Positions 11,792 to 26,461 of a DNA stretch of 43,534 nucleotides are shown in pieces. Source of the DNA: Coriobacteriales bacterium (lineage in GTDB: Bacteria > Actinomycetota > Coriobacteriia > Coriobacteriales > UMGS124); NCBI GenBank assembly GCA_017515595.1, contig JAFWFL010000087.1:1-43534 (forward strand), read 5' to 3'. The notes under the pieces are model-generated. The model was not told where the DNA came from, made no database searches, and worked only from the letters and a program-made list of their open reading frames with translations. Within the stretch, counting starts at the first letter, position 1; every line of letters begins with the position of its first letter. The translations under genes and the position numbers were made by a program.

Positions 11792-12346
11792 ATGGACGAG
11801 ATGGACGAACAAATATATAAACGCTATCTCGCCAAACGCAGTGAAAATGACCTGCGTATCCTTTTGGAGCGCTACAAAGAAGGCCTCATATTATTTCTTT
11901 ATAATTACGTACATAACATGGAAGATGCCGAGGATCTCATGCTTGATGCCTATGCGCGCATCGCGTCAGGTACAGGTTTGTTTGCCGGCAGAAGCTCCTT
12001 CAAGACCTGGCTGTTTTCCATTGGCAAAAAACTGGCCTTCATGCACCTAAGAAAATCGCCACCCCCCTCTGAGCAGCTTGATGAATCATTAAACGATGAG
12101 TCTGACCCGCTTGACCTGGGCATTCTGCAAGACGAACAAAACAGGCAGCTCTACCAAGCGCTGAGGCAGCTCAAACCCGAGTACCAACAAATCCTGACAC
12201 TTCTTTACTTTGAACAAATGTCTCATGAAGAAGCCGCTCGTGTTATGGGCAAAACCAAGAAACAAACATATCATCTTGCAGAGCGGGGTAAGGCTGCTTT
12301 AAAAGAGAAACTCGAGCAAATGGGGTTCGAAAATGCGTACAACTGA
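11792..12346 (+). CDS. ECF-type RNA polymerase sigma factor
   Basis: A 184-residue sigma-70 family protein with region 2 at about 15-90 (RYKEGLILFLYNYVHNMEDAEDLMLDAYARI, then FKTWLFSIGKKLAFMHLRK). Region 4 lies at about 120-172 (LPEYQQ-like KPEYQQILTLLYFEQMSHEEAARVMGKTKKQTYHLAERGK). Region 3 is absent, as expected for an extracytoplasmic-function sigma. Its ATG follows AAGGACG. Its end overlaps the next gene by 14 bp. Position at the head of a 14-gene run, together with a PrsW-like protease, suggests that it responds to an envelope or peptide signal and activates this island or other genes. Confidence 0.9.
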   Translation: MDEMDEQIYKRYLAKRSENDLRILLERYKEGLILFLYNYVHNMEDAEDLMLDAYARIASGTGLFAGRSSFKTWLFSIGKKLAFMHLRKSPPPSEQLDESLNDESDPLDLGILQDEQNRQLYQALRQLKPEYQQILTLLYFEQMSHEEAARVMGKTKKQTYHLAERGKAALKEKLEQMGFENAYN

Positions 12347-12659
12347 AGAGCAGCTTAAAGAGATCAATCAAAGAGTAAATACCATACAAAAACAGAGATC
12401 GCTACGACGGCAGATTGCTCTGGATTTGGCTTCCGGTGGCAGCTGCCTCATTTTGTTGGTTGTTGTCTGCATCTGGATACCCAAGCTTACAGAACAGGAG
12501 ATCGAAAATACCGCAAGCAACTATGGAGGTTTACTTCTAAGTGCGCCGTATTTGGGTTATGTATTGGTAGGTATTCTTGCCTTCACATTAGGCATATGTG
12601 TCACGCTTTTATGCTTTCATTATAAAATATTAAAGCAACAAGAGCAGGAACGTAAATGA
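12333..12659 (+). CDS. Two-TM membrane protein, candidate anti-sigma partner
   Basis: A 108-residue protein. Residues 1-29 are a charged, helical cytoplasmic segment (TEEQLKEINQRVNTIQKQRS). Transmembrane helices lie at about 33-50 and 75-96, with a short tail rich in Lys, Gln and Glu. It overlaps the sigma gene by 14 bp, the usual arrangement for an anti-sigma factor, but it lacks the zinc HxxxCxxC motif. It is clearly paralogous to the protein at 14221-14688: both have a TEE/TEQ start and GGLLLS/GSLLLS, then GYVL, then a G-x-x-x-TL-x-C end. Role inferred from context only. Confidence 0.75.
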   Translation: MRTTEEQLKEINQRVNTIQKQRSLRRQIALDLASGGSCLILLVVVCIWIPKLTEQEIENTASNYGGLLLSAPYLGYVLVGILAFTLGICVTLLCFHYKILKQQEQERK

Positions 12660-13438
12660 TCTTGCCGATTGCCTTAGACATCCTCTCGGCTATTGTGCAA
12701 ATGTGCGTGCTTGTCGCCGCAATCAGGCTGCTTGGACGTGCAAATATCCTATTGCCTGTCGCGTTTTTTACCTTTGCTTTAGCCTGTGTTTTGCTGAGTA
12801 CTCTCTATTGGATCACGTTTGACATTATACAACCGGGGATGCGCATGCCCTTCGCAGCCAATCAAATTGGAGAACTGGCGTTATTCCTTCTCTTGGCTGT
12901 ATGTCTGAAATCAGTCATTCCTCTTAATTACTATGGGCATGGTGCGGCAGTTATTGCCACAACACTCTTTGCGGTTGCTAATATTGCACTTTGGATAGCT
13001 TGGTCCGGGGAATGGGTACAAGACATCTTGGGAGGCATTCCTTTTGGGTACCTTTTGTGTATCACCGTCCTCTGCCTGCGGCAATCAGAAGCACTCACAT
13101 ACAAAGAACAAGCCATTATTGGTGTTTTATGCATGGTTTTGATCATTACGCAGACTTCAATTTTCTTTGCTCCGGACACAGCCAAACACCTGCTTGACCT
13201 CTTTTGTTATAGCCTGCTCTTTTTTATTGGTGCATGCATTATCCTGCGCGCGCTCCACTCATTGCGTACGGACAGCCCGCCAGCAGCATCTTTGAGCCTT
13301 GCTTTTGCCTCATACGCCTGGATGACAACTGCCATGTACATGAGTGACGGCGGCTTTTATCTGGTTGCGTTTGCCCTTGTTACCCTGTGCTTTCCGCTCA
13401 TGCTGCACGCGCTGCGCAAGGTGGTGACAGCCCCGTGA
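12656..13438 (+). CDS. Multi-TM membrane protein of unknown function
   Basis: A 260-residue protein with about seven to eight hydrophobic segments and short loops, and no catalytic motif that I recognise. It overlaps the preceding gene by the ATGA tetranucleotide and the following PrsW-like gene by GTGA, so the three are translationally coupled. It might be a sensor or an accessory to the protease. I do not recognise the family. Confidence 0.75.
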   Translation: MILPIALDILSAIVQMCVLVAAIRLLGRANILLPVAFFTFALACVLLSTLYWITFDIIQPGMRMPFAANQIGELALFLLLAVCLKSVIPLNYYGHGAAVIATTLFAVANIALWIAWSGEWVQDILGGIPFGYLLCITVLCLRQSEALTYKEQAIIGVLCMVLIITQTSIFFAPDTAKHLLDLFCYSLLFFIGACIILRALHSLRTDSPPAASLSLAFASYAWMTTAMYMSDGGFYLVAFALVTLCFPLMLHALRKVVTAP

Positions 13439-14070
13439 TTTATGCCGAGAATATCCTTTTGTGCATCGCAATACCATTAGCCGTCTCAGCGCTCTTTGTG
13501 CGCGAGGATGCCCGACGCTTTGTAGTTGCTTTTCTTATAGGTATGGTGGTATGCCTTACGAGCTCTTATATAGACGGGTTTCTCAACTTGGCCAGTGGTA
13601 TGGGTGCAGAAAACACATCAATCTTCATCTCCCCTGTTGTGGAAGAGTGTATGAAGCTCTTGTCTTTGTTGTGCCTGCTGGTTTTGCTGGATCCGCCAAA
13701 CCGCACGCTCACAATATTCGCCGTTGCTATTGGCGCGGGTTTCGCTACCTTTGAGAATTGTTGCTACATTCTTACAACAGGTGCAGAGAGCTTTATGTAC
13801 GTCCTTATTCGAGGTATGGCAGTTGGCGTCATGCACGTTGTGAGCATCCTGGCACTGGCCATCTGGTTCATCGCGGCCAAACGTCTGGGAGCTTTTACTT
13901 TCTCGGCAGTCGTAGGGGCAGGAGCACTTCCCGTGACATTTCATGCCCTGTATAACCTGCTTGTGTCACAGCCGGGCGTGTCGAGCACAATTGGCTATCT
14001 GCTGCCAATCGCCACCGCATTTGCGCTGTATCTCATCTATAAAAAAGTATTGCCCAAGTTTGAAAACTAA
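13435..14070 (+). CDS. PrsW-like intramembrane metalloprotease
   Basis: A 211-residue multipass protein carrying the PrsW signatures: SPVVEECMK (E70, E71, K74), FATFEN (103-108), GVMHVVS (H134) and the C-terminal FHALYN (H170, N174). PrsW makes the first cut in anti-sigma RsiW in Bacillus subtilis, and related CAAX-type glutamate proteases share these residues. Here it is coupled to an ECF sigma factor, so the two-TM proteins nearby are candidate substrates. The GTG at 13435 is chosen because it overlaps the upstream stop and follows AAGGTGG; an in-frame ATG at 13387 lies well inside the upstream gene. Confidence 0.8.
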   Translation: MIYAENILLCIAIPLAVSALFVREDARRFVVAFLIGMVVCLTSSYIDGFLNLASGMGAENTSIFISPVVEECMKLLSLLCLLVLLDPPNRTLTIFAVAIGAGFATFENCCYILTTGAESFMYVLIRGMAVGVMHVVSILALAIWFIAAKRLGAFTFSAVVGAGALPVTFHALYNLLVSQPGVSSTIGYLLPIATAFALYLIYKKVLPKFEN

Positions 14071-14220
14071 CAATCAACAGGGTGTTGGCAGTCAATGGGG
14101 ATGGGCGTTATTGTCCGCGAATGGTGTTGTGTAGATTATGTGACAGGTGGGTAAACGCCTGACAAACCGCAACTAATAAGCAAACGAGCAGAAGTGCTAT
14201 TGGTTGGCAGGTGAGCATAG

Positions 14221-14688
14221 GTGCGTTACACAGAACAGGAAGCCTTGGCCGAGATCTTGCGGCGTACAAAACGGATTCAGGCAGAACGGGACCGTCGCAC
14301 CACCACCTGCTTACAAACTGCAGCATCAGTACTCTCCTGCGCATTGATCTTGGCTATTGTCCTTTTGCCGGACAGAAGCGCAATTACACCGGGAGAATCC
14401 TTCTTTGGGTCGCTTTTGCTCTCCCAAGAGGCCGGGGGTTACGTACTCACAGCAGTTATCGCCTTTTCACTGGGTGTCGCGATCACACTTGCTTGCCTGC
14501 GCTACAGGCAAGCAAACGAGTCTTTGGACAAAGCGCAGGAGCCGCGCCGTAGATCCGGCGTTGGCAGGGTACGTCTGGATGACAGCCTTCTTGGCAGCGT
14601 CGCAGGCGGCATAGATGAGAAGGCGGACGGGTCAAAAAAAGACAAACAGTTTGCCCAAGATCTCAAAAAGAATGAGGTGCATCAATGA
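14221..14688 (+). CDS. Two-TM membrane protein with C-terminal double-glycine motif
   Basis: A 155-residue paralogue of the protein at 12333-12659. It has a charged N-terminus (1-30), transmembrane helices at about 33-50 and 73-95, and a longer cytoplasmic tail. The tail contains LDDSLLGSVAGGIDEK with the GG at 129-130. This closely resembles the leader end of the precursor at 16494 (DDEELEAVAGGVID). Cleavage there by the C39 exporter would release a 25-residue, Lys-rich, Cys-free peptide. GTG start at 14221 after a GGTGAG-like site. A 150-bp gap separates it from the PrsW-like gene, the largest gap in the island apart from that before the exporter. Confidence 0.75.
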   Translation: MRYTEQEALAEILRRTKRIQAERDRRTTTCLQTAASVLSCALILAIVLLPDRSAITPGESFFGSLLLSQEAGGYVLTAVIAFSLGVAITLACLRYRQANESLDKAQEPRRRSGVGRVRLDDSLLGSVAGGIDEKADGSKKDKQFAQDLKKNEVHQ

Positions 14689-14906
14689 GTAATGTGTTTC
14701 GAGAAAAGAGTCTTGAGCGGGTTTCCTCACCTGAGGAGCTCAACGACTACATAAGGGTGACCAGTCCATCTGTCTGGCTGGTGCTGCTGGGCACGGCAAT
14801 CCTGCTTGTAGGGATGCTTGTATGGTGTGTTCTGGGTACGGTCGAGGTAGAAAATGAAGATGGCACTACAACACAGGAGCATCCCATATCTTTTGTAACT
14901 AATTAG
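14685..14906 (+). CDS. HlyD/NHLM-type adaptor reduced to its membrane anchor
   Basis: A 73-residue protein starting in an ATGA overlap with the previous gene. The sequence FREKSLERVSSPEELNDYIRVTSP followed by WLVLLGTAILLVGMLVWCVLG matches what I recall of the N-terminus of NHLM-system secretion (HlyD family) proteins. In those a cytosolic arm and one transmembrane helix precede a long periplasmic coiled-coil and barrel. Here the protein stops about 20 residues after the helix. The absence of the periplasmic part fits a monoderm cell. It is a complete reading frame with normal signals, so reduction, not recent truncation, is likely. Confidence 0.65.
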   Translation: MSNVFREKSLERVSSPEELNDYIRVTSPSVWLVLLGTAILLVGMLVWCVLGTVEVENEDGTTTQEHPISFVTN

Positions 14907-14953: not shown

Positions 14954-16411
14954 GTGAGGTATATACTGAATGGACGGTACCGCTTTCGCGGCTGGAAAAA
15001 GGCACAGACCGGCGTTTATGATGCCGCTACAAAGACAGCCAAATTCCTGAACAAAAAACAGTATCTGATGCTTCTGCGGTGCGACGGTGCACATGATCTT
15101 GATGAACAGGACCTCTCTGAGGAAGATAAGAAATTCTTTGAGGAACTCTTAAACAGCGAGGTTATTCGCCCTGCCCGCTTAATGGAGCTTTTGCATCCCG
15201 TGCAGAGCTACAAAGAATATCCTGCAGAATACCGTAAGTCAGTACAGTGGTCTATTACCGGCGCCTGCAACCTCAAATGCCGGCACTGCTTTATGTCTGC
15301 GCCGCATGCAAAGCACGGCGCACCAAGCCACGAGCAAATTATTGCAATTGCTGACCAGCTTGCCGAGTGCGGCATCTTTCAGGTGAGCCTGACCGGTGGT
15401 GAACCGCTTATCCGCGAAGATTTTCTTGACATCATTGACGCTTTAAATGAACGCGAGATTGGTATCGACACCATCTACACCAACGGCTGGCTGGTAGATG
15501 AAGCTTTTTTGGATGATCTCGACAAACATCATGTTCACCCTCCCTTCCAGCTGAGCTTTGACGGCGTGGGCTGGCACGACTTCCTGCGGGGAGTACCAGG
15601 AGCTGAGGACCGCACAATCAGTGCTTTAAAACTGCTGCAAAAACGAGGTTGCCCGGTGTCAATATCAATGTGCATGCATCGCAAGAACCGCCACACCTTG
15701 CGCAAAAGCATAAACTTACTGGCTTCCCTGGGGGTGCGCAGCGTCAAATGCGGATCCATGATGCAACTGGGCGAATGGGCACAGCCGGAGCTGCATGACC
15801 TTCAACTGACAAAAGAGGAAGAGCTGCAGATGTTTGAGGAGTACATTCCGCAGTACTTTGAGGACGATGCACCTGTTTCCCTCATGCTGGGCGGAGTCTT
15901 TATGTACGACCCCGGCGACCCCATGTGGAACATCTTCTTCCGCCGGGAGTGCGCTCCTGAAGACGAGCGTCTTATGCCTTCTTGCGGTATTTTAACCAAG
16001 AACTTCTATATTGGGGCCGAGGGTATGGTATGCCCCTGCATGGGCATGGGGGATTGCGGCTATGCCAAGAACTTCCCCAACCTGTTCGAGACACCGCTCA
16101 GAGAAATCCTCGACGATTCTGACTTCACGCACTTATGCCAGACTAAGGTGGGCGATATCCGGGATGCCAACCCTCAGTGCAGAGAATGCAAATACCTTGA
16201 CCGCTGCACCGGCGGCTGCCGCAACTCAGCCCTCATGGCAGGCGACAACTACTGTGGTATTGACCCAGAGCAATGCTGGTTCTTTGAACACAACGGAGAA
16301 GAGCGGATCGCAGCTGCCGCCAAAGATGCCTTCGAAGCATATATCAGACGTCACCCACCAACAAACGGGCAAGCAAAGCCTGCTGATGACGCGATGGCAG
16401 AATGCCCGTAA
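14954..16411 (+). CDS. Radical SAM/SPASM peptide maturase
   Basis: A 485-residue enzyme. Residues 1-75 resemble a PqqD-like precursor-recognition domain. The radical SAM core starts at about 97 with TGACNLKCRHC; C105, C109 and C112 hold the [4Fe-4S] cluster. TGGEPL is the SAM-binding GGE motif. The C-terminal SPASM region is Cys-rich (SCGI, CPCMGMGDC, CRECKYLDRCTGGC, then C near YCGID), enough for two auxiliary clusters. Such enzymes install thioether, C-C or C-O links in RiPP precursors. The gene immediately before the Nif11 precursor makes that its likely substrate. GTG start at 14954 after GAGGAG. Product chemistry cannot be read from the sequence. Confidence 0.88.
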   Translation: MRYILNGRYRFRGWKKAQTGVYDAATKTAKFLNKKQYLMLLRCDGAHDLDEQDLSEEDKKFFEELLNSEVIRPARLMELLHPVQSYKEYPAEYRKSVQWSITGACNLKCRHCFMSAPHAKHGAPSHEQIIAIADQLAECGIFQVSLTGGEPLIREDFLDIIDALNEREIGIDTIYTNGWLVDEAFLDDLDKHHVHPPFQLSFDGVGWHDFLRGVPGAEDRTISALKLLQKRGCPVSISMCMHRKNRHTLRKSINLLASLGVRSVKCGSMMQLGEWAQPELHDLQLTKEEELQMFEEYIPQYFEDDAPVSLMLGGVFMYDPGDPMWNIFFRRECAPEDERLMPSCGILTKNFYIGAEGMVCPCMGMGDCGYAKNFPNLFETPLREILDDSDFTHLCQTKVGDIRDANPQCRECKYLDRCTGGCRNSALMAGDNYCGIDPEQCWFFEHNGEERIAAAAKDAFEAYIRRHPPTNGQAKPADDAMAECP

Positions 16412-16493: not shown

Positions 16494-16961
16494 ATGGCAA
16501 TCGAGAAGGTAAAGAGTTTCTTTGAAAAGCTGAATGAGGATCCTGAAGCGCAGAAGCTGTTCGAAGCGCTTCCTGCAGCGGAGAATCCGGAGGATGCCGC
16601 CAAGGCATATGCCGGCCTTGCAGCACAGCTCGGTTTCAGCCTGACTGCAGAAGATTTTGCCGAGGCTTACAAGGAATCTGAAGCACGCAGGCATAAGGAC
16701 ACCGAGGAGACGGCTCAGAAGGTCGGTGCTATTGATGACGAGGAGCTCGAGGCGGTAGCCGGAGGTGTCATTGATCACGGCGACTCCTGCTACAGTGACT
16801 GGCAGTGCAATAAAACCTATGAGGATTACGAGAACTGCTGGAGTAATGATGCATGCGACAATTCGGTCACTCATTACAAGGGCTACATCTGCTATTGGGA
16901 AAATAAAGGAACCTGCAATATCCTTGCATCAAAGAATGGAGGGTGTTCGTGGTTCTTCTAG
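16494..16961 (+). CDS. Nif11-type RiPP precursor peptide
   Basis: A 155-residue precursor. Residues 1-91 are a Nif11-like leader (KVKSFFEKLNEDPEAQKLFEAL, then the helical AAQLGFSLTAEDFAEAY) ending DDEELEAVAGG at 90-91. The core, 92-155, has seven cysteines (99, 105, 115, 121, 133, 141, 151) and twelve aromatic residues, with CX5C pairs at CYSDWQC and CWSNDAC. Such a core suits radical SAM-made thioethers, disulfides or aromatic crosslinks. ATG follows GAAAGGA. A hairpin at 17094 separates it from the exporter genes, as expected when precursor mRNA must exceed transporter mRNA. Confidence 0.88.
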   Translation: MAIEKVKSFFEKLNEDPEAQKLFEALPAAENPEDAAKAYAGLAAQLGFSLTAEDFAEAYKESEARRHKDTEETAQKVGAIDDEELEAVAGGVIDHGDSCYSDWQCNKTYEDYENCWSNDACDNSVTHYKGYICYWENKGTCNILASKNGGCSWFF

Positions 16962-17093
16962 AGTCACAATACCTGATGCATTCAGTGGCCGGTACTAGTG
17001 CTACACCAAGTTATTGCTTTTTGGAGTCATGACGCCGGGACCGCTTACTGCCATCCCATAAGCGTTGGTGAGTCTGAATAATATCTTGTTTAA

Positions 17094-17139
17094 CCCCGGC
17101 CTCTCCGGAACGCAATAAATGCCTTCCGGAGGGCTGGGG
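17094..17139 (+). other. Stem-loop between precursor and exporter genes
   Basis: CCCCGGCCTCTCCGGAA (17094-17110) pairs with TTCCGGAGGGCTGGGG (17124-17139) with one bulge and a 13-nt loop. There is no T-run, so it probably stabilises the precursor mRNA or partly halts transcription before the exporter. Confidence 0.65.
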
Positions 17140-17186
17140 TGTAATTGGTTAGAGAACCGCTTAGACCGCAAATGAAACGAGGGCAT

Positions 17187-19424
17187 ATGCGAGACAAGGC
17201 AATCAAGCAGCCGGTGAGGTCCGGTGTTGCAAAAGTGCCTGTTATCATGCAGATGGAAGCGCTGGAATGTGGCGCCGCTTCCTTATGCATGGTGCTGGCA
17301 TATTACAACAAGTGGATCCCTTTAGAGCAGGTCCGCGCAGACTGCGGCGTAAGCCGTGACGGCTCAAACGCACGCAACGTCCTCAAAGCAGCCCGCAGTT
17401 ATGGCCTTAATGCCCAAGGGTACCGCTATGAGCCGGAGGATCTTCAGCGGGAGGGAACGTTCCCCTGTATTATTCACTGGGAGTTTAACCACTTTGTGGT
17501 CTGCGACGGCTTTAAGGGAGATAAAGTTTACCTCAACGACCCTGCCAAAGGCAGCTATGCCGTAAGCAGGGAGCGCTTTGATGAGAGCTTTACCGGCATC
17601 GCGATTCTGTTTGAACCGGGCGAAAACTTTGAGCCCAGCGGCAAGCCAAAAAGTGTGTTGGACTTTGCACGCAAACGCCTGCAAGGCGCCGGTCCGGCTA
17701 TCGCCTTTGTAGCAATTACCACAGTCATCGCCTCACTTGCTGCCATTCTCAACGCAGGCTTCTCACGCGTGTTTATGGACCAGCTTCTACCCGGGCGTAA
17801 TGAAGACTGGATTGTACCGTTCTTTATAGGTTTGGGTATACTCACGCTCCTCCAGCTTGTATCTGCCTGGATTCAGGCAATATATGCGCTTCGCCTCAAC
17901 GGCAAGATGGCTGCTGTGGGCAGTAGTACGTACCTTTGGCATGTGCTGCGCCTGCCCATGGAGTTCTTCTCACAACGCATGGCCGGCGACATCCAAATGC
18001 GCAAGGAGTCAAACGCTACCATTGCAAGTAACCTTGTCAACACCGTAGCGCCGCTTGTTCTTAATACCGCTATGATGGTCTTTTACCTGGTCGTGATGCT
18101 GCGCTACTCGGTTTTGCTCACAGCTATTGGTCTGGGCGGTGTGGCAATAAACGCGGGAGTCTCGCGCTACATCTCGGCCAAACGCGTCAACATCACGCGC
18201 GTCATGATGCGCGATGCAGGCAAGCTCTCGTCATCCACAGCGAGCGCGATTGATATGATCGAGACCATCAAAGCGAGCGGTGCCGAGAATGGATACTTTG
18301 AGAAATGGGCCGGCTACCAGGCATCCGTCAACACACAGAACGTTCGCTACCTCAAACAGAACCAGTATCTGGGCCTCATTCCCAGCGCTGTTGGGACGGT
18401 AACTAATGTCGCTGTATTAGTGCTTGGCGTGTGGCTCACCATGCAGGGGCAGTTCACGGCTGGCATGGTCTTTGCATTCCAAGGGTTCATGGGTGCCTTC
18501 ACAGCTCCCGCCAGCGAGCTCATCAGTGCGGGCCAGTCAATTCAGGAGATGCGCACCTCAATGGAGCGCGTTAATGACGTAATGGAATACCCGCTCGACC
18601 CGGTTTTTTCGCAAGAAGTAAAGGCTCAGGATGAGCAGACTCCGGTTGAGAGCCAACCGCACACTGAAGTCTTAACCCAGGCAGAAGAGCAGAGCTTTGA
18701 TAAACTCTCGGGCACCTTGAGCCTGCGCCATGTGACCTTTGGCTACTCCAAGCTCGCCGCTCCCCTTATTGAGGACTTCAACCTCGAGCTCAAGCGCGGT
18801 CAGCGGGTTGCCTTTGTGGGTACCTCAGGATGCGGCAAGTCTACGCTTTCAAAGCTTATTTCAGGACTTTACCAGCCCTGGAGTGGCGAGATACTCTTTG
18901 ACGGAAAACCCATTGATGCTATAGACCGTGCCGTATTCACCGGGTCTGTGGCGGTGGTTGACCAGGATATCATTCTCTTTGAAGACAGCATTGCAGCCAA
19001 TATCAGGATGTGGGACAACTCCATTGAAGACTTTGAAGTAATTATGGCTGCCCGCGATGCCAGTATTCATGAGGATATCATGCGCAGAGCCGGCGGCTAC
19101 CAATATAAGATCACTGAAGGCGGCCGCGACTTCTCGGGCGGGCAGCGGCAGCGCCTCGAGATCGCCCGTGTTCTGGCTCAAGACCCCACAATTATTATCA
19201 TGGACGAGGCAACGAGCGCTCTTGATGCCCGTACAGAGTACGAGGTAGTCGACTCTATTAAAAACCGTGGCATCACCTGCATTGTCATTGCGCACCGGCT
19301 TTCCACCATCCGCGATTGTGATGAAATTATTGTACTTGACCGGGGCCATGTGGTAGAGCGGGGCACCCATGACGAGCTCATGGCACTTGGCGGCACTTAC
19401 AAAACGCTCGTGAGCAGCGAATAG
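17187..19424 (+). CDS. NHLM-type peptidase-containing ABC exporter
   Basis: A 745-residue protein with three parts. The C39 peptidase (about 17-135) has Q22, catalytic C28 (ALECGAAS), H102 (HWEFNHF) and D118 (NDPAKG). Six transmembrane helices lie at about 160-440. The ATPase has Walker A GTSGCGKST near 543, signature FSGGQRQR near 648 and IIIMDEATSALD. It should cut leaders after the double glycine and export the core. The ATG at 17187 follows CGAGGG at short spacing; 17172 is an alternative start. A 14-bp gap leads to the second exporter gene, which it probably partners. Confidence 0.9.
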   Translation: MRDKAIKQPVRSGVAKVPVIMQMEALECGAASLCMVLAYYNKWIPLEQVRADCGVSRDGSNARNVLKAARSYGLNAQGYRYEPEDLQREGTFPCIIHWEFNHFVVCDGFKGDKVYLNDPAKGSYAVSRERFDESFTGIAILFEPGENFEPSGKPKSVLDFARKRLQGAGPAIAFVAITTVIASLAAILNAGFSRVFMDQLLPGRNEDWIVPFFIGLGILTLLQLVSAWIQAIYALRLNGKMAAVGSSTYLWHVLRLPMEFFSQRMAGDIQMRKESNATIASNLVNTVAPLVLNTAMMVFYLVVMLRYSVLLTAIGLGGVAINAGVSRYISAKRVNITRVMMRDAGKLSSSTASAIDMIETIKASGAENGYFEKWAGYQASVNTQNVRYLKQNQYLGLIPSAVGTVTNVAVLVLGVWLTMQGQFTAGMVFAFQGFMGAFTAPASELISAGQSIQEMRTSMERVNDVMEYPLDPVFSQEVKAQDEQTPVESQPHTEVLTQAEEQSFDKLSGTLSLRHVTFGYSKLAAPLIEDFNLELKRGQRVAFVGTSGCGKSTLSKLISGLYQPWSGEILFDGKPIDAIDRAVFTGSVAVVDQDIILFEDSIAANIRMWDNSIEDFEVIMAARDASIHEDIMRRAGGYQYKITEGGRDFSGGQRQRLEIARVLAQDPTIIIMDEATSALDARTEYEVVDSIKNRGITCIVIAHRLSTIRDCDEIIVLDRGHVVERGTHDELMALGGTYKTLVSSE

Positions 19425-19437
19425 GAAGGAGGAAACG

Positions 19438-21639
19438 ATGGGTTGGTTTGATGAACAAATACGGCAGCGCAAACTGGCAGACGATGCCGCTTTTGAGGAC
19501 TCCTTCCACCAAATTGCCGGCGCGGTTATGGGCCGGCAGATGTCTGACGCCCTGAATAGCGACAGGCAGCTCGCCACTGATGCCATTGGCGAAATTCTTA
19601 AATATTACCATGTGAAACCCCGCGAAGTACCGGACAGTGTTAAAGATATAAATGAGGTGCTTGAGCACCTCATGAGACCGAGCGGTATCATGCGCCGCAC
19701 CGTACGCTTGGACAAAGGCTGGCGCAAGGATGCGGTAGGCGCTATGCTGGGCACCCGTACAGATGATGGCAGCGTTGTAGCACTCCTGCCCAGCGGTATG
19801 GCCGGCTATAAGTATTATGACCGTGCTTCAGGCACATATGTACGTGTGAACTCCCGTAACGAAAGCCTCATACATACCGAGGCGATTGCTTTTTATAAAC
19901 CATTCCCGCTCAAGAAGATGGGTATTGGAACATTAATGCGATACATTTGGGAGCAGGTTGCTCCTGCTGACCTTGCCATGCTCTGCATCATCATGGCCTT
20001 TGTCACGCTGGTAGGCATGCTCACGCCGCGCATCAACGCTATGCTCTTCTCTGACGTGCTTGCCTCAGGCAGCGCGAGCGTACTGGTGGGCACGGGCATC
20101 TTTTTGCTTTGTGCTATGTTGAGCAGTTTGGTTTTTGGTGTAGTCTCGGCATTGGTAAATGCCCGCATTATGACCAAAATGAGCGTCAATGTAGAAGCGG
20201 CTTCTATGATGCGGATGCTGTCTCTGCCGGCGAATTTCTTCAAAAACTACAGCGCAGGCGAGTTATCAAACAGGTTGCAATACATGAATACCCTGGCCGA
20301 GCAGCTCGTGAGTATTGTGCTCTCGTCAGCTTTAACCTCGGTATTCTCGCTTGCCTACGTTGCTCAGATATTCTTGTATGCTCCAGCCTTGGTTGCTCCG
20401 GCACTTACGGTCACGTTCCTCACGCTGGCCGTAACAATTGCCACCGTCCTTATTCAAGTGCGAATAACGCGCGAGCGGATGCTCTTGGGCAGTAAAGAAA
20501 GCGGTATCAGTTATTCTCTCATCTCAGGCATCCAAAAGATACGCCTTTGCGGTGCCGAGAAGCGCGCTTTTGGCCGTTGGGGTAAGGCATATGCCAAGCA
20601 AGCCGCACTGACGTACAACCCGCCCACGTTACTCAAAGTAAGCCAAGTAATCATCAGCGCAATCTCTTTGGTGGGAACCATGGTGATGTACTACGCAGCT
20701 ATCGCAAGCCAGGTCTCGATTGCTGAGTACTATGCCTTTAACACAGCCTATGGCATGGTCAACGCCGCCTTTCTCTCGCTTGCGTCTGTCGCAGCCTCCA
20801 TTGCCCAAATACGCCCCACACTCGAAATGATTAAACCTCTCATGGAGACCGTTCCGGAGGTATCTGAGGACAAAGAGGTTGTTACCCGGCTTTCCGGCGG
20901 TGTAGAACTCAACAACGTTACCTTCCGCTACAGCGAAGACATGCCGCCTATACTTGACAACATAAGTCTCAAAATCAGACCCGGCCAGTACGTAGCCATT
21001 GTGGGCAAAACCGGCTGCGGCAAGAGCACCCTCATGCGTGTAATGCTGGGATTCGAAACGCCTCAAAAAGGTGCGGTTTACTACGACGGCAGAGATTTGA
21101 CAAGCATCGACCTCAAGTCGCTACGGCGCAAGATTGGCACCGTCATGCAAAACGGTAAACTCTTTACCGGCAATATCTTCTCGAACATCACCATCTCAGC
21201 CCCCTGGCTTACGCTTAATGATGCTTGGGAAGCAGCAGAGATCGCGGGTTTGGCCGAGGATATCCGCCACATGCCCATGGGAATGCACACCCTCATCTCA
21301 GAAGGTCAGGGCGGCGTCTCGGGCGGGCAGCGGCAGCGCATCCTCATTGCGCGCGCTGTAGCGCCTAAGCCGCGCCTGCTTATGTTTGATGAAGCAACAA
21401 GCGCTCTTGACAACCTCACACAAAAACAGGTGAGCGAAGCGCTTGACAAGATGAAGTGCACGCGCATTGTTATTGCCCACCGCCTCTCAACCATCCGCCA
21501 ATGTGACCGCATCATTGTATTGGACAAAGGCAAAATTGTAGAAGACGGCACTTATGAAGAACTCATTGCGGCAAACGGCAGCTTTGCTGAACTGGTTGAG
21601 AGACAGAGGCTCGATAATCCCAAAGAAGTATCCCAATAA
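19438..21639 (+). CDS. NHLM-type second ABC exporter subunit
   Basis: A 733-residue ABC protein. The N-terminal 160 residues form a cytoplasmic domain unrelated to C39. Six transmembrane helices (about 165-455) and an ATPase follow, with Walker A GKTGCGKST near 522, signature VSGGQRQR near 626 and LLMFDEATSALD near 650. Peptidase-less partners of this layout are the second ABC subunit of NHLM bacteriocin-type systems, where they sit next to the C39 subunit as here. It follows a strong AGGAAGGAGG. It probably forms a heterodimer with the preceding subunit. Confidence 0.88.
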   Translation: MGWFDEQIRQRKLADDAAFEDSFHQIAGAVMGRQMSDALNSDRQLATDAIGEILKYYHVKPREVPDSVKDINEVLEHLMRPSGIMRRTVRLDKGWRKDAVGAMLGTRTDDGSVVALLPSGMAGYKYYDRASGTYVRVNSRNESLIHTEAIAFYKPFPLKKMGIGTLMRYIWEQVAPADLAMLCIIMAFVTLVGMLTPRINAMLFSDVLASGSASVLVGTGIFLLCAMLSSLVFGVVSALVNARIMTKMSVNVEAASMMRMLSLPANFFKNYSAGELSNRLQYMNTLAEQLVSIVLSSALTSVFSLAYVAQIFLYAPALVAPALTVTFLTLAVTIATVLIQVRITRERMLLGSKESGISYSLISGIQKIRLCGAEKRAFGRWGKAYAKQAALTYNPPTLLKVSQVIISAISLVGTMVMYYAAIASQVSIAEYYAFNTAYGMVNAAFLSLASVAASIAQIRPTLEMIKPLMETVPEVSEDKEVVTRLSGGVELNNVTFRYSEDMPPILDNISLKIRPGQYVAIVGKTGCGKSTLMRVMLGFETPQKGAVYYDGRDLTSIDLKSLRRKIGTVMQNGKLFTGNIFSNITISAPWLTLNDAWEAAEIAGLAEDIRHMPMGMHTLISEGQGGVSGGQRQRILIARAVAPKPRLLMFDEATSALDNLTQKQVSEALDKMKCTRIVIAHRLSTIRQCDRIIVLDKGKIVEDGTYEELIAANGSFAELVERQRLDNPKEVSQ

Positions 21640-21659: not shown

Positions 21660-21962
21660 ATGCTCGAGATTCGCAAAAAACAGGATGGCGATACACTTAA
21701 CGTAGCGCTTATAGGACGGCTTGATACCGTTACTTCACCTCAGCTTGAAGGCGAACTTCGCGTTGCAGTGAATGACGTTAAAACACTCATATTTGATCTC
21801 GCAGACCTTGAGTATGTTTCTTCTGCCGGGCTGCGCGTCTTTTTGAGCGCTCAAAAAGTCATGAACCGCCAGGGCGAAATGAAGGTGCGCCATATACGGC
21901 CCGGAATCATGGAGATTCTTGAGGTTACGGGGTTTATTGACCTCTTGGATATTGAAGAATAA
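21660..21962 (+). CDS. STAS-domain anti-sigma factor antagonist
   Basis: A 100-residue single STAS domain. The conserved phosphorylation region is LEYVSSAGLRV, with Ser54/Ser55. Proteins of the SpoIIAA/RsbV type are phosphorylated here by an anti-sigma kinase and reactivated by a PP2C phosphatase; both occur downstream (25985 and 22904). GAAAGG precedes the ATG. It begins 20 bp after the exporter, in the same run. Confidence 0.92.
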   Translation: MLEIRKKQDGDTLNVALIGRLDTVTSPQLEGELRVAVNDVKTLIFDLADLEYVSSAGLRVFLSAQKVMNRQGEMKVRHIRPGIMEILEVTGFIDLLDIEE

Positions 21963-21973
21963 AGGTATTGCAA

Positions 21974-22897
21974 ATGCAGGACGGCCACAGCTTGGATTTC
22001 ACACCGGTGCGCCTTACTGACTATGACCGGATATATGCTTATACTTCGCGGTTTGGAGAAGGTTCTTGCCAGCATTCGCCGGTAAGCATGTATTCTTTGG
22101 CCGAGAAGTATGGCGATGCTGTTTGCGAGTATGACAGTGTGCTTTTTACGCTGCGAAACAAGCTTTGCAGCAGCAAATACCGTGTTTACCTTGCCCCACT
22201 GGGAGATGCCCGTTCAATGGGCACGGCATATGCAAAGATAGCCGGTGATGCAGCCGCATATGGCAAAAAAGCGTGCTTTTTCACACTTACACAGGCACAA
22301 ACAAAAGTATTGGAAGAAGCATTACCGGGACGTTTCACTATTAGCGAAGACCGTGACCTTGCTGAGTATTTCTATTCCACAGAGGTTATGGCTAGCTTTT
22401 CTGGGCATGCGCTCCAGCGCAAGCGCGGTGAAATTCATGCATTTTGGGCTGCTTATAGCAGCCGGGCCTCTGTTGTACCAATACAGCCCTCTGATATGGC
22501 TGAAGTGCTTGATTTTGAACATAAATGGCTTGCCGGTAACGCTCAAACGCATGATGCAGAAGCTTTAGAGCGCGAATCACGAATGATTGAGCTGCAGATG
22601 GCATACTTTGACGCCTTGCATCTGTGTGGTGTTATAGCATATATTGACGGGCGCATATGCGGATTCACCTACGGCACCAAGTTATGTGAGAACGTTTTTG
22701 ACGCAATTATTGAGAAAGGCAGCCGGGAGGTACCACATCTCTATAAAGTACTCAGGCAGGAGCTTGCAAAACAGTGTGCCTGTGGATGTACATACATAAA
22801 TATTGAGGAAGATTTGGGGGTTGAGGGACTCAGGGCAATGAAACTTGCCTATCACCCCCACCATTTGCTCCGCAAATACCGGGCAACCGAGAAGTAG
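21974..22897 (+). CDS. DUF2156 / LPG-synthase C-terminal domain protein
   Basis: A 307-residue cytoplasmic protein of two GNAT-like halves, with LDFTPVRLTDYDRIYAYT at the start and INIEEDLGVEGLRAMKLAY near the end. This matches DUF2156 (the soluble catalytic domain of aminoacyl-phosphatidylglycerol synthases), without the membrane flippase part. In MprF-type enzymes the domain transfers amino acids from aminoacyl-tRNA to lipid; stand-alone members have unknown acceptors. In this island it might modify lipid for self-protection or modify the peptide; both are inference. ATG at 21974 after AAAGG; a TTG at 21968 is possible. Confidence 0.75.
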   Translation: MQDGHSLDFTPVRLTDYDRIYAYTSRFGEGSCQHSPVSMYSLAEKYGDAVCEYDSVLFTLRNKLCSSKYRVYLAPLGDARSMGTAYAKIAGDAAAYGKKACFFTLTQAQTKVLEEALPGRFTISEDRDLAEYFYSTEVMASFSGHALQRKRGEIHAFWAAYSSRASVVPIQPSDMAEVLDFEHKWLAGNAQTHDAEALERESRMIELQMAYFDALHLCGVIAYIDGRICGFTYGTKLCENVFDAIIEKGSREVPHLYKVLRQELAKQCACGCTYINIEEDLGVEGLRAMKLAYHPHHLLRKYRATEK

Positions 22898-22903
22898 GCA
22901 GAC

Positions 22904-25900
22904 ATGAAACTTGGCAAACAGGGTCTCGCGACTATTGGCCTTATAGTTATTACGTGCTTAGCGGCAATCCAGTACGTATTCTTACGTAATGTGCCCAGCA
23001 CTGTCTCAACGTTTGCCTTTGTTTGCATTACCAACGCAATTGGCCTCATAGTCCTTGCGTTAATACGTCCCAAAAAGCTTGCCGGCATGCATAAAACAAC
23101 AATGCTCAAAGGCGCCTTTTTTGCTTTTGAGCTGACGGGTTTTAATGTATTTTTGCTGCTGGGGTCTCACAACCTTGACGCGGTTGTTATTTCGAGCGTG
23201 CTGAGCATGTACTTTGTATTTATTACCCCGCTTTTGCTTTTACTGCGCAAGCGGGTCAGCTTTTTCTCAGGCATTGCAACAGTCATTGCAATCATTGCTC
23301 TTTTGCTTTTGTTTGGCGCCGATACCGACGCCTTGTTCTCTTCTGCCGACGTGGTGTATCTGATCATCGCAGATGCCTTCTTTGCCGCATATGTGGTAAG
23401 CGTCTCTATTCTTGGTGAGTCAGAAGATTCGACTCATCTTACGCTCGCACAAATGGGCTTCTCGGCATTGTTTGCGCTTGTGGGATGGCTTGTTGAATGC
23501 ATGGTAAGCGGTCAGAATTTTGCCCTTCCCACTGAACCGGGCTTCTGGGTAAGCGCTGTCTTTATAGGCGTCTTCATCAGGGCAGTTTATGGCATTGTAC
23601 AAATCTCCTGCCAAAAATATGTATCTGCCCTTAAGGCGTCACTCATTTTTTCTTCTGAGATCATTGTCACTTTGGTTACCAACCCATTCATGTGCAATTT
23701 ACTTGGTGTGCCGTATACGCCTGTCACGGTTTTCCAGATCCTGGGGGGCCTTTTGCTTATTGCAGCCACCCTCATGGTGGACGACACTGTGATGGCACGC
23801 CTGGGTTATGAGGATTTGCAAGAAACCGTGAGCATAGATGCATCAGGTACTGTTTTTAAGCGCACCTCGGTGACACGCAAGGTGATCTTGCTTACGCTCT
23901 CATTTGCTATGATCACGCTTGTGCTCTGCGCCAGCACATTCCTCTCGGCTATTCATGTCATCCGCTCTTCTGCGGTAGAGAATTCCCAGAACCTGGGTGA
24001 GAATGCCTCATCCATCAGCTCTGAAGCTATGATTGGCAAACTTGAAGAGCGCATGATCAACCAAGTGCAGGATAAAGCACTTATGGCCGAGCAAAAACTC
24101 AGCGCTTATTCTGATGCGGTGCTCCTCGCTGCTTCTTATGCACATACGCTGCTTCTGGAACCGGACAGCTATCCCCAAAAAGAAGTTGCCCGTCCGTTGA
24201 GCAAAAACGCAGGTACATGGACCATGCAACGGGCATTGGCAAACGAGGAAATTGATTATAAGGGCTTACAGGCACAAAGCGCTCTTTTGGGTAATATGGA
24301 AGATGTGTTCGCTCCCCTTGTGGAAAACAGCGATAACATTGCAACCATCTACTTGGGAACAGAAAACGGCTTGCAAATTGCTTATGACCCGTTTTCTGAT
24401 GGTGACGCAGCAGAAGAGAGCTACTATGAGTATCGCGATTCGTCGTGGTATGAGCTAGGCAAACATGCAGACAGATACGCCTTCACTGATGCGTATCAGG
24501 ACGGCTATGGCAGAGGTCTCACCATCACATGCGTAGCGCCGTTCACAGATGCAAACGGTGGCCTTGTCGGCTGTGTCGCGATTGACATCCTTATGAGAGA
24601 GCTTAACGCCTCGATGGTTAATGACGGCATTGTTGACCCAAGCGCAGCAGTGCTCATTGATTCTCATGGTGCCTATATCGCAGGCAAAGACATTGACCCT
24701 GCCACTGAAGACGCAGGCAGCGTTTTTGACGATGACGGACCTTTGAGCCAGGCTGCTCCCGAGATTCTGCGCAGAAAGAACGGCATTACCAGTGTTGGCA
24801 CCGGTGAGGACGCCGTGTACATTTCTTTTGCATCAATAGATTCAACAGACTGGATTCTATGCATCATGAGCCCCGTTGCATCAGTCATAAGCCCGGCACT
24901 CTCCATCCGTGAGAGCATTAACCACAACACCGAGGGCGTGGTTGCCACAGTTACACAGGAGATTCTCAATGTCATTCAATATTGTCTTTTGTTAAGCGCG
25001 CTCATCCTGCTGTTTGTGACACTGTTTGCCGGAAGATCATCAAAAAAGATTTCTGACCCGCTTAAACAGCTTGAAGCTGATGTGCTCCGGATCAGTGGCG
25101 GGAATCTTGATAACCGCACCCAGGTTGTGACTGATGATGAAATTGGAAGCCTTGCTAACTCGTTCAACACTATGACTGACTCACTGCAACGCTACATTGC
25201 CAACCTCAAAGAGGTTACGGCAAAAGAAGAACGCATAGCCGGTGAATTGGATGTAGCGCGGCATATCCAGGCGAGCATGCTGCCGCGTGACTTCGAGGGT
25301 TTCTCGGCAAAAAGCGAGTTTGACCTCTATGCTTCTATGACACCTGCCAAAGAAGTAGGCGGCGACTTTTATGACTTTTTCTATACTGACGAAAATCATG
25401 TGTGCCTTGTTATGGCAGATGTCAGTGGCAAGGGTGTCTCGGCAGCATTATTCATGGCGATTGCTAAAACCCTCATTAAAAACCGCGCACAGATGGGTGG
25501 CGGACCGGCGGAAATCCTGTCTTATGCGAACGAGAAGCTCTGCGAAGGCAATGAGGCTGAGCTGTTTGTAACCGTGTGGCTTGCGATTATTGATCTTACA
25601 TGCGGTAAGGGGCTTGCTGCCAACGCCGGACATGAGCATCCGGTAATCCGGCACGTAGACGGTGAATATGAACTGGTGAAGTACCGTCATTCGCCTGCCG
25701 TAGCCACAATGGAAGGCATACGCTTCCGTGAGCATGAGTTTGAACTACAACCCGGTGACAGGTTCTTTGTCTATACTGACGGTGTAGCTGAGGCAACCAA
25801 TGCCACAAATGAGCTCTTTGGTACAGAAAGAATGCTCCAAGCCCTTAACTTCAACGTTTCTGCGACGCCAAAAGAGCTGCTTGAACATGTGAAAGCGCAG

Positions 25901-25984
25901 ATAGATGCATTTGTGGGTGAGTCAGATCAGTTCGACGACATTACTATGTTAAGTTTCTATTATTATGGGCCAAAGGAGCTTTAA
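22904..25984 (+). CDS. EamA transporter-Cache-HAMP-PP2C phosphatase fusion
   Basis: A 1026-residue membrane protein. Residues 1-300 are an EamA/DMT-like domain with about ten transmembrane helices. One helix at about 325-350 leads to an extracellular dCache-like sensor (about 355-670). A second helix at about 685-710 leads to HAMP (about 712-765). The C-terminus (about 775-1026) is a SpoIIE/RsbU-type PP2C with the metal residues in GGDFYDFF, ADVSGKG, TDGVAEA and DDITML. The phosphatase should dephosphorylate the STAS protein upstream under control of the sensor. The reading frame is continuous through all domains. The start follows AAGTAGG. Fusion to a transporter-like domain is unusual for RsbU proteins. 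Confidence 0.87.
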   Translation: MKLGKQGLATIGLIVITCLAAIQYVFLRNVPSTVSTFAFVCITNAIGLIVLALIRPKKLAGMHKTTMLKGAFFAFELTGFNVFLLLGSHNLDAVVISSVLSMYFVFITPLLLLLRKRVSFFSGIATVIAIIALLLLFGADTDALFSSADVVYLIIADAFFAAYVVSVSILGESEDSTHLTLAQMGFSALFALVGWLVECMVSGQNFALPTEPGFWVSAVFIGVFIRAVYGIVQISCQKYVSALKASLIFSSEIIVTLVTNPFMCNLLGVPYTPVTVFQILGGLLLIAATLMVDDTVMARLGYEDLQETVSIDASGTVFKRTSVTRKVILLTLSFAMITLVLCASTFLSAIHVIRSSAVENSQNLGENASSISSEAMIGKLEERMINQVQDKALMAEQKLSAYSDAVLLAASYAHTLLLEPDSYPQKEVARPLSKNAGTWTMQRALANEEIDYKGLQAQSALLGNMEDVFAPLVENSDNIATIYLGTENGLQIAYDPFSDGDAAEESYYEYRDSSWYELGKHADRYAFTDAYQDGYGRGLTITCVAPFTDANGGLVGCVAIDILMRELNASMVNDGIVDPSAAVLIDSHGAYIAGKDIDPATEDAGSVFDDDGPLSQAAPEILRRKNGITSVGTGEDAVYISFASIDSTDWILCIMSPVASVISPALSIRESINHNTEGVVATVTQEILNVIQYCLLLSALILLFVTLFAGRSSKKISDPLKQLEADVLRISGGNLDNRTQVVTDDEIGSLANSFNTMTDSLQRYIANLKEVTAKEERIAGELDVARHIQASMLPRDFEGFSAKSEFDLYASMTPAKEVGGDFYDFFYTDENHVCLVMADVSGKGVSAALFMAIAKTLIKNRAQMGGGPAEILSYANEKLCEGNEAELFVTVWLAIIDLTCGKGLAANAGHEHPVIRHVDGEYELVKYRHSPAVATMEGIRFREHEFELQPGDRFFVYTDGVAEATNATNELFGTERMLQALNFNVSATPKELLEHVKAQIDAFVGESDQFDDITMLSFYYYGPKEL

Positions 25985-26461
25985 ATGGATGAGATCACCC
26001 TGGAAGCAGAGGACAGCAATCTCGAAGAACTGCTCGGCTTTATTTCTCAACGGTTTGAGGGCATAGATTACTCAGAAAGAACAAAAATGCAGATTGACGT
26101 GTCGGTAGAAGAGGCGTTTGCTAACATTGTGAGATATGCCTATACGCCGGGAACAGGATCTGTAACGTTACGGGTACAGATTGAGAAAAATGATACCGTT
26201 CAGCCGGAATTATGCATAACAACAGGCTCCGAGGCAGATTCGAGCAAAAACGCTGAATGCCCGGTTGCAATAATCACCCTCATTGATCAAGGTATTCCCT
26301 ATAACCCCCTTAAGAAGAGCGACCCTGACGTGACTTTAACCGCTGAAGAGCGCAAGATTGGCGGACTGGGAATCTTCCTTATAAAAAAAAATATGGATGC
26401 GATAGATTACGCCTATGAAAACGGGTGTAATGTTTTAACCCTGCGCAAAAAGCTTGTATAA
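25985..26461 (+). CDS. RsbW/SpoIIAB-like anti-sigma serine kinase
   Basis: A 158-residue HATPase_c protein with N box EEAFANIVRYAY, G1 LIDQGIPYNP and G2 GGLGIFLIKK. It follows the phosphatase stop directly, with AAAGGAG inside the end of that gene. Such kinases phosphorylate a STAS antagonist and, when free, bind and block a sigma factor. No SigB-type sigma lies in the window, so the target is the ECF sigma at 11792, a distant sigma, or another protein. With the STAS and PP2C genes it makes a complete partner-switch set. Confidence 0.88.
   Translation: MDEITLEAEDSNLEELLGFISQRFEGIDYSERTKMQIDVSVEEAFANIVRYAYTPGTGSVTLRVQIEKNDTVQPELCITTGSEADSSKNAECPVAIITLIDQGIPYNPLKKSDPDVTLTAEERKIGGLGIFLIKKNMDAIDYAYENGCNVLTLRKKLV

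Follow-up and report, generated by a model that had tools for sequence, protein, structure and literature searches.

A Nif11-leader precursor with an invariant CX3D unit points to an apparently undescribed, probably ranthipeptide-like RiPP family from rumen and gut bacteria

We analysed a 43,534-nucleotide stretch of DNA from a Coriobacteriales bacterium (the window) and found that it encodes a SPASM radical-SAM maturase, a Nif11-leader precursor and a pair of NHLM transporters with a C39 peptidase, which is an orthodox RiPP layout (Table 1). Comparison with related precursors draws attention to one unit of the core, C-x3-D, and we regard it as on balance probable that this ranthipeptide-like cassette forms a thioether between Cys115 and Asp119. 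The family occurs in rumen and gut bacteria and is apparently undescribed. A literature search for the motif strings, with most subscription journals outside its scope, returned unrelated papers only, and no description of the motif was found in the Nif11 literature that we examined.

Table 1. Features of the cassette, with positions in the window
Feature	Position	Strand	Basis or remark
HlyD-like NHLM export protein, short (73 aa)	14685..14906	+	Only first 43 positions of TIGR03794
SPASM radical-SAM maturase with putative N-terminal RRE-like domain	14954..16411	+	Pfam, alignment, AF2
Nif11-leader RiPP precursor, 155 aa, ATG start	16494..16961	+	PF07862 over cut-off
Precursor leader, residues 1-91, ends ELEAVAGG	16494..16766	+	Double-Gly; predicted helical, folded
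Core peptide, residues 92-155, 64 aa	16767..16958	+	Seven Cys, four Trp and six Tyr
Conserved core motif C105-x3-Y109 / C115-x3-D119-x-C121-x6-Y128 / C133	16806..16892	+	Comparison of relatives
Invariant CX3D unit C115-W-S-N-D119; proposed Cys-Asp thioether	16836..16850	+	Spacing-only comparison
Strong RNA hairpin, precursor-transporter intergenic region	17093..17140	+	z = -5.4 vs shuffles
NHLM ABC transporter 1 (ABC1) with C39 leader peptidase	17145..19424	+	TIGR03796, 938 bits vs 853
NHLM ABC transporter 2 (ABC2)	19438..21639	+	TIGR03797, 734 bits vs 709
STAS-domain protein	21660..21962	+	Pfam; recurrence near related cassettes

The precursor scores 31.5 bits against PF07862 (Nif11; Pfam cut-off 23.8). 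With TIGR03798 it reaches 26.1 bits and stays below the curated cut-off of 32.3, which the paralogous precursor (L002) passes with 39.8 bits. The leader ends in the double-Gly motif AVAGG (residues 87-91), with a C39 transporter encoded nearby. In the AF2 model pLDDT is about 85-97 at residues 1-80, while no confident fold was obtained for the core (pLDDT below 50 from residue 90 onward). Translation of the ORF confirmed every count of the original prediction, namely a Nif11 precursor whose 64-residue core holds seven Cys (positions 99, 105, 115, 121, 133, 141 and 151), four Trp, six Tyr and CX5C twice (99-105 and 115-121). About 50 other precursor cores are homologous to that of the window, and a 29-column core profile gave only two matches in the whole genome, the window core itself (E 7e-12) and one paralogue. 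Thus, the core pattern is more than a chance arrangement.

Cassettes of similar make, with maturase, precursor and NHLM export genes, were found in many gut and rumen MAGs. From 70 maturase relatives and a leader-based search we obtained about 100 candidate precursor ORFs, and cores were sampled for the motif only by their Cys spacing and by a GG close by, Asp not being asked for. Among 16 precursors of what we call class A (the window, its paralogue, eight tandem members at locus L014, L015 and others), Gly90, Gly91, Cys105, Glu113, Cys115, Asp119, Cys121, Tyr128 and Cys133 are invariant. Family-wide conservation of Cys is limited to positions 105, 115 and 121; Cys133 is kept in the nearest class, and Cys99, Cys141 and Cys151 are unconserved. 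The two CX5C spacings are therefore not two copies of one element, and the "CX5C twice" of the original prediction is no repeat, since the Cys that opens the first of them is unconserved.

The family-wide motif is modular and can be written as C1-x3-[V/Y/F] ... C2-x3-D-x(1,2)-C3-x6-Y. Picking by CX9CX5C yielded 45 sequences, and 41 of these belong to the family as judged by eye over the whole core; the 41 have D at C2+4 and V, F or Y at C1+4 without exception (41/41 each) and Tyr at C3+7 in 39 cases, all counts being taken from related and hence non-independent sequences. Picking by CX9CX6C added seven members of the CWGxDGGC type, again judged by eye, with D at C2+4 and Tyr at C3+7 in 7/7. 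As C3 is shifted by one in these cores and D is still found at C2+4, the fixed pair is C2-D and not D-C3; neither C2-x3-D nor C3-x6-Y is disrupted by the extra residue that separates D from C3. Likewise, longer C1-C2 linkers (L037, L042, L045 and L048) do not break the C-x3-D-x-C-x6-Y unit. A second set, the CAATVE cores, is mostly accompanied by maturases only about 38-41% identical and nevertheless shows the Cys spacing of class A. We read the motif as a set of three movable units, with one Cys and one candidate partner in each. Some later loci (L102 on) were retrieved with a profile that contains the Asp, a bias from which the maturase-retrieved loci are free.

Other readings of the same residues were tried and rejected. 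An NxxcA-like NxxC motif fails on the Asn, which precedes D in most cores but varies; in a W-x-N cyclophane motif neither W nor N is conserved; and CX5C does not serve as a repeat unit, as the spacing to C3 varies (CX5C or CX6C) and CX3D is constant. The number of Cys was of no help either. The original prediction had taken the odd count as an argument against pure disulfide pairing. However, homologous cores have 3-9 Cys, about half of them an odd number (two rows of the list are chance matches, and a few cores in it were truncated prematurely), so that parity is unconstrained and uninformative on disulfides. Its guess of at least one thioether or other crosslink still appears likely, with the invariant C2-x3-D as a better basis than parity.

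The maturase passes the Pfam cut-offs for both Radical_SAM and SPASM. Its CX3CX2C motif (C105, C109, C112) and its SPASM Cys set, C344-x12-G357-x4-C362, C409-x2-C412-x5-C418-x3-C422 and C441, are invariant in 28 aligned maturases, which makes seven canonical SPASM Cys. No Cys was found six residues past C344 in this alignment. Counting ligands by analogy with those of anaerobic sulfatase maturases, the sequence is compatible with an AuxI cluster that three protein ligands would hold, leaving a site open as in CteB. For CteB the open AuxI site has been described (PMC8326336). In the AF2 model (pLDDT 90.4), strands and helices form a putative RRE-like domain at the N-terminus, and the alignment of the model with SuiB spans 489 columns. 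SuiB, SkfB and PqqE are the best PDB fold matches; the match to SuiB is as good as that to SkfB, while by sequence SkfB is the nearest solved structure (87 bits with the family profile) and outscores SuiB. The maturase thus resembles RiPP SPASM enzymes, in line with the presumed maturation of the precursor by this adjacent enzyme; a grouping with non-RiPP SPASM enzymes, named in advance as counting against this, was not seen. Membership in known maturase families was rejected on curated cut-offs: TIGR04068, of which we take PapB to be a member, gave 31.4 bits (cut-off 500), TIGR04103 (nif11-class maturase 3) gave 75.3 bits (cut-off 725), and TIGR03974 (SCIFF, cut-off 425 bits) had no match at E 1e-5.

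In the maturase tree the motif is confined to a single 30-row branch (SH-aLRT 89) with three sub-branches supported at 100. The motif is absent from all 52 other maturase loci when the same strand is searched to a distance of 6 kb; the bare Cys spacing occurs there in six chance matches, all lacking the Asp. The core profile has matches in 6 of 301 genomes of the window's order, and of 391 genomes sampled from the class to which G061 belongs it matched G061 alone, the 390 further genomes being empty.

Contig C4 of the window's genome carries a paralogous maturase/precursor pair (62% identity). This maturase and its class A precursor (L161, G000:C4:17000-36500) lie downstream of proteins with Tat-like signals; no transporter was found within the 19.5 kb read, and the pair may borrow the exporter of the window. 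At L014:9501-14597 a single maturase is followed by about ten tandem precursors, eight of class A and two of class B. The genome of L029 (G066) has seven motif-bearing Nif11/GG precursors spread over several contigs (L103-L106 and L108-L110), and the 6-10 kb inspected at these loci contain no family maturase; three family maturases are encoded elsewhere in this genome, and a prochlorosin-like maturation in trans is possible. In G153, G288 and G300 (L116, L117, L120 and L121) motif-bearing precursors were found and no family maturase was detectable in the genome. Such orphans may be relics, the result of incomplete assemblies or substrates of another enzyme. A maturase match of 39% identity with one internal TGA stop (L008, G019:C9:27963-29405) may represent a pseudogene or result from an ORF-end effect.

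Several CAATVE cores continue into a zinc-ribbon-like tail (CPxCG ... CxxCG), among them L023:6651-7118, L025:155-652 and L029:7544-7966, four precursors at L044, and those at L104-L106, L108-L110, L117 and L121. For these tails NCBIfam gave only sub-threshold zinc-ribbon matches. The arrangement looks like a fusion of a RiPP motif with a metal-binding-like domain.

A second group of precursors, class B, has no CX3D and is described by DGHEMGC-x3-[Y/F]...WC-x3-[Y/F] (GHEMGC...YH...WC). They are encoded next to maturases of the same close clade as class A, at some loci alone. The residue at +4 from the first Cys is Y or F in all 16; the second Cys is retained in 15 of 16, with Y, F or W at +4 in 15 of 16, and where the optional third Cys is present, Y or F mostly follows. 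It follows that the enzyme has other acceptors, perhaps aromatic residues at +4, or that its rule is not CX3D; the C-x3-aromatic pattern hints at a wider range of acceptors.

CX3D is the natural crosslink motif of PapB, which joins Cys S to the C-beta of Asp in freyrasin (PMC9413430). This unit, together with the likely open AuxI site as in CteB, is why we propose the Cys115-Asp119 thioether. In the route that we infer, the N-terminal domain of the maturase would bind the folded Nif11 leader, and SAM-derived radical chemistry would join the S of Cys115 to the side chain of Asp119, most likely at C-beta, with a loss of 2 Da. Cys105 in the C-x3-Y109 unit and Cys121 in the C-x6-Y128 unit could serve as additional donors or be joined in disulfides once exported, and Cys99, Cys133, Cys141 and Cys151 would most likely be disulfide-paired or free. 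The C39 domain of ABC1 would cleave after Gly90-Gly91, and ABC1/ABC2 would export the product. The maturase would thus act like PapB while lying outside PapB's family.

For the Cys115-Asp119 bond we count the invariance of D, the restriction of the motif to one maturase branch, the identity of CX3D with the PapB motif, the complete SPASM set compatible with an open AuxI site, the thioether-forming SkfB as nearest solved sequence and the lack of a predicted core fold. Against it stand the class B precursors at the same clade, the orphans in three genomes without a detectable family maturase, and the fold match to SuiB, which makes a Lys-Trp C-C bond. Moreover, conservation at C1+4 and C3+7 comes close to that of D, so that the bond could lie elsewhere, and the conserved Asp can have a structural, metal-binding or recognition role instead. 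One such alternative is that thioethers, alpha- or beta-linked, are made to +4 residues generally, chiefly aromatic ones or Val (C105-Y109 and C-x3-[Y/F] of class B), with Asp119 as one of several acceptors or none. The unbroken V/F/Y at C1+4, the +4 aromatics of class B and the single maturase clade common to both classes speak for it; yet an i,i+4 spacing is also produced by a helical face, the counts are non-independent and the pattern was spotted post hoc, and we consider this alternative unlikely. In a wider form, also a doubtful one, the clade would link Cys to a +4 residue of any kind (Asp, Tyr/Phe or Val) on movable modular units, including the zinc-ribbon-tailed cores and scattered precursors served in trans by few maturases. 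If this were true, thioethers from Cys to an aromatic residue at CX3[Y/F] would be without precedent among ranthipeptides.

That the enzyme instead makes an aromatic C-C or C-O crosslink (cyclophane or SuiB-like), for example at W116-N118 or Y128, with all Cys in disulfides or free, is quite unlikely: Y128 is nearly invariant and SuiB and PqqE are among the best fold matches, but D119 is conserved where W and N of W-x-N are not, and the sequence score favours SkfB over SuiB. We find it very unlikely that the product is a disulfide-rich secreted peptide, the radical-SAM enzyme having another job (e.g. epimerisation) or another substrate. Several Cys are indeed present, and C133 is conserved in class A; however, no core fold is predicted, only three of the seven Cys are conserved family-wide, and Cys number and parity vary widely among siblings of one locus, whereas disulfide scaffolds usually retain their Cys. 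A degenerate or non-functional cassette, for which the short HlyD-like gene might be quoted, is most improbable, as homologues of this short gene recur at related loci, all catalytic and SPASM Cys are retained in the maturase and both transporters score above curated cut-offs.

The hairpin between precursor and transporter genes has no T-run and is possibly an attenuator or a transcript-end stabiliser. Past the transporters (21660-26461), the STAS gene is followed by genes for an LPG-synthase-C-like protein, a PP2C phosphatase (22904-25984) and an RsbW-like protein (25985-26461). STAS/PP2C/RsbW partner-switching genes, whose link to the peptide is putative, recur near several related NHLM cassettes. 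On the other side of the cassette, 11792-14688 encodes an ECF-type sigma factor, a PrsW-like protease and two small membrane proteins that look alike (12333 and 14221). This may be a sigma/anti-sigma module; the gene set was not found at related loci.

Overall, a vague remark on an odd Cys number can be replaced by one testable bond, C115-D119. The compact motif of this radical-SAM RiPP family is usable for genome mining. Moreover, precursors with CX3D and with CX3-aromatic units on a shared maturase clade offer a natural test of acceptor choice in thioether-forming SPASM enzymes.

The family resembles several known systems and differs from each of them. With Nif11-derived peptides such as the prochlorosins (N11P, Haft 2010, PMC2887384) it has in common the Nif11 leader, GG cleavage, NHLM transporters, paralogous arrays and dispersed precursors, but those peptides are matured by LanM or azoline enzymes and the window's presumably by a SPASM radical-SAM enzyme. 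The spliceotide system PlpX/PlpY also combines radical-SAM chemistry with Nif11 or NHLP leaders (PMC11002830); in a comparison by family scans only, it differs in that PlpX cuts out tyramine and relies on a stand-alone RRE protein. SCIFF/thermocellin-CteB (TIGR03974) shares the radical-SAM/SPASM enzyme, a Cys-rich peptide and the likely open AuxI site, whereas the window maturase lacks a TIGR03974 match, the core layout is unrelated and the leader is Nif11. The N118-x-x-C121 of the window core recalls the Cys-Asn link of the NxxcA ranthipeptide, yet the family conserves Asp and not Asn. SkfB, from the sactipeptides, has the D-G-x-HD-x-LRG stretch in common with the maturase, while core layout and leader differ. 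Freyrasin with PapA-PapB comes close in its CX3D unit, SPASM radical-SAM maturase and Cys-rich core. In contrast to freyrasin, which has six CX3D, the window core has one, the system uses a Nif11 leader and NHLM export, its maturase reaches 31 of the 500 bits for TIGR04068, and the family adds the conserved C-x3-[V/Y/F] and C-x6-Y units.
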